A DNA stretch of 64,000 nt from Acidimicrobiaceae bacterium (GTDB taxonomy: Bacteria > Actinomycetota > Acidimicrobiia > Acidimicrobiales > Poriferisodalaceae): assembly GCA_905182565.1 (NCBI GenBank), contig CAJJCB010000026.1, positions 1 to 64,000 on the forward strand, in the 5' to 3' direction. Each line of letters starts with the position of its first letter. Positions within the stretch are counted from its first letter, which is position 1. The notes beneath the pieces are model-generated. The model saw only the letters and a program-made list of their open reading frames with translations, was not told where the DNA came from and ran no database searches. The position numbers and the translations under genes were made by a program. Positions 6,857 through 35,586 of the stretch are shown here, in pieces.

Positions 6857-6974
6857 CTTTCAACGCACCAGCGTCTGAAGTGAAGCACTGTGCTAGTACT
6901 TGCTCCTCATTAGGTAAATGCGGTTCCGCCATGTCCCCGATCACTGCGAAATAGGAAATACCCGCAAATGTGAA

Positions 6975-6983
6975 TGCTATAAG
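6975..6983 (+). promoter_or_regulatory. extended -10 promoter (TGCTATAAG) giving a probable leaderless mRNA
   Basis: TGCTATAAG matches an extended -10 element (TGnTATAAT-like) and ends ten bases before the ATG at 6993. Transcription would start at or beside the start codon. No ribosome-binding site precedes 6993, which fits leaderless translation, common in actinobacteria. No good -35 is seen, as is usual with an extended -10. Confidence 0.45.
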
Positions 6984-6992
6984 ATGCTTGGT

Positions 6993-7547
6993 ATGGCGTG
7001 GATTGAGGTAGTCCCAGATGAAGAATGGTCCGATGATGCCGCGCTCGAGAGCCTTTACGGCCGAGTTGTTGATAAGAACCATGGTCGGGTCGATTACATC
7101 ATGTCGATCCATTCTCTTAACCCAAGAGCATTGGCAGCCCATAATGGCCTCTACGGGTCAGCTATGGCGGGCACCGCGAACTTACGAAAAGTTGAGCGAG
7201 AGTTAATTGCTCTGGTCGTGAGTCTCGAAAACGAATGTCATTACTGAATTGGTCATCACCGGCGTGGTCTGCGCCAACTACTCAAAGACGATTCCCTAGT
7301 TGTGGCCATAGAACAGGACTGGCGGTCTGCTCCACTCAACGAAAAAAGAAAAGCAATGCTGATTTACGCTACAAAGCTCACTCATACACCTTCAAAAATG
7401 ACCTCCAATGATGTTGAGCAGTTACGTGCGGTGGGATTCAGCGACCGAGACATCCTGGACATAGCCGAAGTCACTGCCTACTACGCCTACGCCAATCGGA
7501 TAGCCGACGGGCTAGGAGTCGAGCTGGAGCCCTGGTTTAACGATTAG
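6993..7547 (+). CDS. AhpD-like peroxidase-related selenoprotein (in-frame TGA = Sec85)
   Basis: Reading straight through a TGA at 7245-7247 gives one 184-residue protein of the AhpD/carboxymuconolactone-decarboxylase 'peroxidase-related' family. Before the TGA is RKVERELIALVVSLENECHY; after it, in the same frame and with no other stop, is IGHHRRGLRQLLKDDSLVV and then the family C-terminus (RSAPLNEKRKAMLIYA, FSDRDILDI, ANRIADGLGVE). The TGA sits exactly where the second Cys of the redox motif CxxC belongs (C82-H-Y-U85), followed by the conserved HH. A SECIS-like hairpin follows at 7261-7275. The enzyme should reduce hydroperoxides with a Cys/Sec pair. The VOC gene begins 25 bases downstream. 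I start at ATG 6993 (MAWIEVV, the family start); 6918 is an alternative. Pseudogenisation is less likely because frame and motif are intact. Confidence 0.85.
7261..7275 (+). promoter_or_regulatory. bacterial SECIS-like hairpin
   Basis: GGCGT-GGTCT-GCGCC folds into a 5-bp stem (closing pair U-G) with apical loop GGUCU. The loop begins after 18 bases following the in-frame TGA at 7245-7247. From memory, the E. coli fdhF SECIS, which recruits SelB, also has a GGUCU loop 18 nt after its UGA. Loop and spacing are read from sequence; SelB binding is inferred. Confidence 0.72.
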
Positions 7548-19996: not shown

Positions 19997-21282
19997 TGAG
20001 GTCGCCAAATACTTTCAAAGCGCTTCAGGTTAAGCACTTCCCATTGTTGCTTGTAGCCGGGTGGACTTGGGGCCTATCAAGATGGGGTGTCTCTTTTATC
20101 GGACCTTTCATCGCTCATGAAATGACTGGTTCCGCTCGGATGGTTCAGCTAACTGGTGTCGCCTTATGGGCACCCATGCTGTTTGGAGGCATCATCGGTG
20201 GTTGGATCTCAGACCGATTTGACCGACGACGGACAATGATTTGCCAGTTCCTAGTGACAATTCCTGCGTTGGTGGTTCTCAGTGCTACTGAGTTTTTGGG
20301 GATTCTGGATGTTTGGATGATTTATCCCGTTCTCTTTTTGGCTGGCGCTGGAATGGTGTTTGACATGACGGGCCGAAGAGCAATTGTCTACGACTTGGTT
20401 GGTGAATCAAATATTGATAACGCGATGGCTCTGGAATCAACTGCAACCTCTACAGCGCTTGCCCTAGGAGCGCTTGCAGGAGGGTCATTAATCCAAGCAG
20501 CAGGGGTTGGATGGGCGCTTGCAGTAATGGCTGGCTTGCAAGTAATAGCAGTGATTACTTTCAGCATGGTTCCCAGAATTGAACGGCTTCAAAAAGCCAC
20601 TGCGGGAGGTCTAACTGCGATAGCAGATGGGGTGAGAATGTTGCGAACCGAGCGTGGGCTAATCAGCATTCTTGGGGTCACAGCATGCGTAAATTTCTTT
20701 TTTTTCGCTTCCACACCGCTAATCCAAATTGTTGGACGGAAATTTGAAGTGGGTCCTGCTTTGCTAGGGGTACTTGCCTCCATGCTCGGCATGGGGATGT
20801 TCATAGGTTCAATGACGGTTGCGAAACGCCAGCCGAAGCGGAGAGGGCGTACGTATATCGTTGGCTCATTTGCAGCATTCTTTTTTATGAGTGGTTTTGC
20901 GTCAGCTCCCTGGTTTCTACTCGCTGGCATGATGCTGTTAGTTGCCGCCATTGGTATGGGGCTATTCGGATCAACACAAGCGGTTTTAGTCATGGACTCA
21001 GTTTCTCCTGACAAGAGAGGGAGAGCATTAGGTCTCCTGACTACGGCTATAGGTGTGTTGCCAATCGGGATGCTTCTCTTAGGTGAGCTTGCAGAGATCC
21101 TCGGACCCTCTGCAGCAATCGTAATTTCGGTGGCTACTGGGGCATTTCTGATGTCCATATTCCTGCGATTTCGCCCCGAGAGCTACCATGTTCTTGTTAG
21201 GCAGGTCCCTGCGGAAAAGACATTTGTTGATTCGGCGTATCCTGGATCAGTGTTTACTGTGGAACCATTTCTAAATAGCTAG
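19996..21282 (+). CDS. major facilitator superfamily (MFS) transporter
   Basis: A 428-residue membrane protein with about 12 hydrophobic segments. The loop between segments 2 and 3 has the MFS signature GGWISDRFDRRRTM (about residues 69-82). Segments such as WMIYPVLFLAGAGMVFDM and FLLAGMMLLVAAIGMGLFG are typical. The GTG start shares one base with the stop of the SDR gene, showing translational coupling; the 3' end overlaps the convergent carboxylesterase gene by 12 bases. It resembles enterobactin-exporter/MFS_3-type permeases. Substrate and direction are not evident; export of a product related to the SDR reaction is a guess. Confidence 0.87.
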   Translation: MRSPNTFKALQVKHFPLLLVAGWTWGLSRWGVSFIGPFIAHEMTGSARMVQLTGVALWAPMLFGGIIGGWISDRFDRRRTMICQFLVTIPALVVLSATEFLGILDVWMIYPVLFLAGAGMVFDMTGRRAIVYDLVGESNIDNAMALESTATSTALALGALAGGSLIQAAGVGWALAVMAGLQVIAVITFSMVPRIERLQKATAGGLTAIADGVRMLRTERGLISILGVTACVNFFFFASTPLIQIVGRKFEVGPALLGVLASMLGMGMFIGSMTVAKRQPKRRGRTYIVGSFAAFFFMSGFASAPWFLLAGMMLLVAAIGMGLFGSTQAVLVMDSVSPDKRGRALGLLTTAIGVLPIGMLLLGELAEILGPSAAIVISVATGAFLMSIFLRFRPESYHVLVRQVPAEKTFVDSAYPGSVFTVEPFLNS

Positions 21283-35106: not shown

Positions 35107-35586
35107 ATGTCTAGTGAACCAATCTTGTCCTATTCGGAATCAATCGACATTAGGGCTTCGGCTTCCGATGTTTGGAAGCTTGTGACTGATATGGAGCGCT
35201 ATGGAGAGTGGAGTTCTGAAAATACAGGCGGCTATTGGCGAAAAAATGCTGATGGTGTCCCGGGAACTGGTCAGATTGGTGATGAATTCGTTGGAATTAA
35301 CCGTAAAGATGGCGAAGAATGGAAAGCTTTAGTTGAGATTGTTGAAAGACAGGAAGGACAATCATTTGGTTTCATTACTGGCGGCCTAGCAATGAACTTA
35401 ATTTCGTGGCGTTATTTGATTACGCCTAACGAAGATGGTGTGATACTCAGTGAACATTGGGATCTACTGAATTTGTCGCCGATGATGATTGAGAATGGTC
35501 AGCCAGAGATAGATAAGCGTGCCGCAAATGCGAAAGAAAGTATTGGAGCTACGCTTAAGGCTATGAAAATTACGGCTGAAAGTTAA
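35107..35586 (+). CDS. SRPBCC (START/polyketide-cyclase-like) family protein
   Basis: A 159-residue single-domain SRPBCC protein. It opens SESIDIRASASDVWKLVTDMERYGEWSSENTGGYW (about 9-43), the characteristic strand-helix with W-E-x-W, and ends with a long helix (KRAANAKESIGATLKAMKI). Such proteins bind hydrophobic ligands in a helix-grip pocket. It is 52 bases downstream of the epoxide hydrolase gene on the same strand, so it may bind a related product. Function otherwise unknown. Confidence 0.82.
   Translation: MSSEPILSYSESIDIRASASDVWKLVTDMERYGEWSSENTGGYWRKNADGVPGTGQIGDEFVGINRKDGEEWKALVEIVERQEGQSFGFITGGLAMNLISWRYLITPNEDGVILSEHWDLLNLSPMMIENGQPEIDKRAANAKESIGATLKAMKITAES

Follow-up and report, generated by a model that had tools for sequence, protein, structure and literature searches.

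The 64-kb window analysed here, the beginning of contig C26 in a draft genome (2.65 Mb, 27 contigs), almost certainly encodes a selenocysteine (Sec)-containing AhpD/peroxidase-related protein, the CxxU form of TIGR01926, in a marine member of the Acidimicrobiia, as judged from sequence and conservation. The predicted gene occupies positions 6993..7547 of the forward strand, from an ATG at 6993 to a TAG stop at 7545-7547, and reading TGA as U yields a single frame of 184 aa with Sec at residue 85. This read-through translation bears out the initial sequence-only reading of the region, according to which an AhpD/CMD frame is broken solely by the TGA at 7245-7247. Ordinary gene calling was also expected to split the gene in two, and genetic code table 11 does yield two separate ORFs (6918-7247 and 7302-7547). 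The N-terminal sequence M-A-W-I is kept across relatives, while sequence upstream of the start is kept only in the closest ones.

Residues 80-89 of the read-through protein are N-E-C82-H-Y-U85-I-G-H-H89, with the TGT codon of C82, the partner cysteine in CxxU, at 7236..7238 and the in-frame TGA, the predicted Sec codon of the second CxxU position, at 7245..7247 (both +). C82 and the TGA at 85 occupy the CxxC position of TIGR01926. The sequence-only reading had placed the TGA on the second Cys of this motif and suggested looking for Cys at residue 85 in homologues; relatives with solved structures do carry Cys there, and a Cys paralogue is present in the same genome. A conserved in-frame UGA aligned with the Cys of homologues is the pattern by which bacterial selenoproteins are recognised. 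In a 28-sequence alignment, E70, C82, U85, H88 and H89 are invariant, in line with the AhpD core E-x11-C-x2-C-x3-H.

Homologues were drawn from two sources, a genome-contig scan and a family-level search, giving 105 aligned loci (30 from the family search, partly from the same genomes as the contig scan) that represent 87 distinct sequences. Every one of the 105 loci carries TGA at codon 85 together with Cys at residue 82, except for one row that is unreadable (N) at the latter position. The 87 distinct sequences, 52-91% identical to the window protein, all keep both the TGA and the downstream hairpin described below. Their hosts are mainly marine Acidimicrobiia, with further representatives in Planctomycetota, Acidobacteria and Thermoanaerobaculia MAGs, and the nearest homologue (91% identical) belongs to an 'uncultured Acidimicrobiales bacterium'. 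Across 396 genomes of the phylum, 14/15 matches at E <= 1e-27 have one TGA. Non-TGA rows are limited to two distant Cys proteins (25-28% identical) and two tandem paralogues located upstream of the Sec gene (L062:4484-4897 and L071:3442-3891). The latter are 41-45% identical; Ser replaces C82 and Trp (TGG) replaces U85, and the L062 copy lies behind a long open stretch rich in acidic and Ala-Pro residues. Judging by these replacements, the tandem paralogues are apparently catalytically dead copies, possibly serving as a partner subunit.

A bacterial SECIS-like hairpin is located at 7261..7275 (+), its arms GGCGT (7261-7265) and GCGCC (7271-7275) enclosing the loop GGTCT (7266-7270). The sequence-only reading had positioned the hairpin 18 nt past the TGA, which is correct for the loop but not for the stem, which begins after 13 nt. 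In the source genome the stem has 5 bp with T-G as the innermost pair, and many relatives have a CGC...GCG stem of 6-7 bp. Of the 2,373 TGAs on both strands of the window, only the one at 7245 combines loop GGTCT at +18 with a stem of at least 5 bp, and this combination is absent from 37,264 TGAs in 30 block-shuffled copies. Further window TGAs with a loose hairpin are found at 35183 and 36178, and one at 20745 was discarded because its frame appears non-coding on translation. An Rfam scan of the window gave no hits. The hairpin folds at -7.7 kcal/mol (z -2.2) when taken alone, and in its 48-nt context the folding energy of the source-genome copy is no better than that of shuffles (z 0.05), so that the evidence for this element lies in conservation and not in energy.

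Third-base entropy was compared between those codons of conserved residues that have four- or six-fold degeneracy. The lowest values of the gene belong to the hairpin codons, namely L93 (0.09 bits), G92 (0.22), R91 (0.36) and R90 (0.82), compared with 0.86-1.98 bits, mostly >1.4, for the other conserved four- and six-fold codons. G92 is encoded by GGT in 84/87 and L93 by CTG in 86/87 distinct sequences, whereas invariant Gly and Leu codons outside the hairpin vary freely. The inner four stem pairs are paired in 86, 87, 87 and 83 of the 87 sequences; the fourth alternates between G-C, A-U and C-G, and the loop-closing pair shows one change from C-G to U-A. For the three outer stem pairs, none of 2,000 shuffles, which ignore relatedness, paired as well. 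A hairpin shortly downstream of the UGA, with a G in its loop and conserved as RNA, is what characterizes a bacterial SECIS. The sequence-only reading had named E. coli fdhF as having the same loop and spacing, and the fdhF DNA confirms this, with TGA followed by CACGGCCCATCGGTTGCA (18 nt), GGTCT and GCACC. Loop GGTCT therefore starts 18 nt after TGA in both genes, but the proteins are unrelated and the stems differ. In the source genome, neither selD nor the CFYU gene shows a loop of the fdhF type downstream of its TGA.

The source genome encodes the complete selenocysteine machinery. A tRNA-Sec is located at C22:115237-115328 (65.5 bits, ARAGORN anticodon TCA), selA and selB form adjacent open frames on C22, and selD is found on C12 (G000:C12:21535 onward, L018:1489-2559). 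Thus selA, selB, selC and selD, the set expected in a genome with bacterial selenoproteins and the one that the initial reading had proposed to look for, are all present. The selD gene itself encodes a selenoprotein, its active-site codon being an in-frame TGA (GAGUACK). At the level of the order, a TGA orthologue is present in 39/248 genomes, and tRNA-Sec above cut-off was detected in 38/39 genomes with the TGA form versus 108/209 others (Fisher p = 5e-9, relatedness ignored). The sole exception, G107, is a genome of 80% completeness split into 570 contigs, and its lack of a tRNA-Sec could reflect an incomplete assembly.

Together with Cys in the solved relatives, this machinery and the conservation of the TGA support the originally proposed CxxU motif, and a selenocysteine reading of TGA 7245-7247 is strongly supported. 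A pseudogene or sequencing error, in which TGC or TGT decayed to or was misread as TGA, would leave one TGA at a Cys position, which is the outcome of one substitution, in an assembly that is a 27-contig draft. However, the TGA stands in 87 distinct sequences from independent assemblies, spanning 52-91% identity and with the frame otherwise open, and is thus no sequencing error; moreover, both the protein and the RNA of this gene are strongly constrained. Such conservation, which extends over genera and phyla, already refutes this explanation and leaves it with virtually no probability. It is only marginally more credible, and still highly improbable, that the hairpin is a chance match arising from the protein's need for R-R-G-L-R, with the TGA being read through in another way or serving as a sense codon in this organism. 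Invariance of R91, G92, L93 and R94 in the protein does account for part of the DNA conservation in the hairpin, but the hairpin codons tolerate far less third-base variation than invariant Gly, Leu and Arg codons elsewhere in the gene, and substitutions in the stem are matched by compensating ones. Further, the order-level link with tRNA-Sec and the full Sec machinery fit Sec, and neighbouring genes are open without TGA as a sense codon.

The read-through protein belongs to TIGR01926 "peroxidase-related enzyme" (139.5 bits, cut-off 81.8) and matches Pfam CMD (43.4 bits, cut-off 23). TIGR00777, the model for the classical ahpD subfamily, whose peroxidases reduce hydroperoxides with a lipoyl-type reductant, does not appear among the profile matches of the protein, and its score against NF041238 (AhpD_rel_CFYUT) falls below the cut-off (39.2 versus 175 bits). 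An AlphaFold model (pLDDT 94.8, pTM 0.90) is closest in fold to the TIGR01926 structures 3c1l, 2prr, 6k40, 2pfx and 2oyo (TM about 0.8-0.86), followed by S. pneumoniae AhpD and then the debrominase Bmp8 (6ohi/6ohj, TM about 0.77), with Sestrin-2 as a weaker match. The five TIGR01926 structures have the fold, the length and the E-x11-C-x2-C-x3-H core in common with the window protein, but are only about 26-33% identical and carry Cys where it has Sec. In profile comparison, 2pfx scores 135 bits and Bmp8 24.4 bits.

Selenoproteins of this type have been reported before, and the sequence-only reading had noted that Sec replaces Cys in AhpD-family members. CxxU AhpD-like selenoproteins were described in Sargasso Sea data in 2005 (27 sequences; PMC1088965), ranked fourth by size among the families of the 2008 GOS table (299 sequences; PMC2398784), and are listed under TIGR01926 with a CxxU motif in a 2026 review (PMC13188914). 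The window gene agrees with the review in family model and motif and is a clear further example of the AhpD-like CxxU family, which has been documented in seawater DNA since 2005. It shares with the published AhpD-like 1 (COG2128/TIGR01926; PMC1088965, PMC2398784, PMC13188914) the family model, the CxxU motif, a UGA with bacterial SECIS and a marine origin; unlike the Sargasso Sea and GOS sequences, it is placed in a genome with full Sec machinery, and the constraint on its hairpin has been measured. Literature searches found no work on 'peroxidase-related enzyme' as a selenoprotein under that name and nothing relevant, by title and abstract, on selenoproteins of Acidimicrobiia.

Based on sequence and conservation, SelB carrying Sec-tRNA(Sec) would bind the GGUCU hairpin that closely follows UGA 85, and the bound complex would insert Sec at this codon rather than allow termination. 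U85 would then occupy the place of the second cysteine of CxxC in the Cys relatives. In AhpD, the second Cys is peroxidatic and is activated by a Glu-Cys-His relay. By analogy, we infer that U85 is the attacking residue, which may react with an oxidised substrate such as a hydroperoxide and form a selenenylsulfide with C82 that would be reduced by a cellular dithiol. 'Peroxidase' is a family name, and both peroxide as the substrate and the nature of the reductant are, like Sec insertion itself, presumed for the window protein.

The gene neighbours, an LLM oxidoreductase (monooxygenase), CaiB and RmuC, are kept only within close genera, and other gene sets without a fixed operon are found elsewhere. 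This variation between lineages suggests a stand-alone redox enzyme, and genomic context gives no substrate. In the L067-L098 group of other marine Acidimicrobiia, the neighbours were judged by eye to be similar to parts of aconitase-X, an aminotransferase/ADC-lyase and an ABC ATPase of the glycine-betaine type, a set that may point to a possible link of these orthologues to hydroxyproline or betaine use. With respect to the substrate only, the protein could instead be an AhpD-fold CxxU oxidoreductase with a target other than hydroperoxides, for instance a reductive dehalogenase-like enzyme or another thiol/selenol reductase. The fold matches to Bmp8 and, more weakly, Sestrin-2 are compatible with this, as are neighbours that range from the LLM monooxygenase and CaiB of the source genome to other sets elsewhere; however, the sequence is clearly nearer to the TIGR01926 peroxidase-related group than to Bmp8, and we consider such an activity rather unlikely. 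It seems considerably more doubtful that this TIGR01926 clade, with Sec throughout and no close Cys orthologue among the genomes sampled, catalyzes a reaction other than peroxide reduction and needs Sec for a chemistry that its Cys relatives lack.

Two other AhpD-type genes were identified in the source genome. One is a second selenoprotein gene (G000:C11:25787-26881, L129:1288-2382) assigned to NF041238 AhpD_rel_CFYUT with 378 bits, in which a TGA interrupts N-E-C-F-Y-U. This family, known from the Sargasso Sea as the selenoprotein 'hypothetical protein 1', shares the AhpD core and CxxU with the window protein, but it is about 365 aa long with an extra N-terminal part, compared with only 184 aa. 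In about 15 relatives, a gene resembling a CFYUT orthologue directly adjoins the AhpD-like gene on the opposite strand (e.g. L059:1020-2129, minus). The other is the Cys-containing TIGR01926 paralogue (G000:C26:472707-473279, L130:1208-1780 minus strand; 205 bits), which carries N-D-C-M-Y-C and forms with the Sec gene a natural Cys/Sec pair for comparison within one genome.

These results leave the understanding of Sec decoding unchanged, and the homologue set is a clean series of natural variants in which to study how a SECIS is constrained when it lies within coding sequence. As ordinary gene callers cut the AhpD-like gene in two, the enzyme can be absent from routine annotations of the group affected, which consists of widespread marine actinobacteria. 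For a selenoprotein family whose first description came from metagenome reads, a host lineage and a complete Sec machinery are now available.
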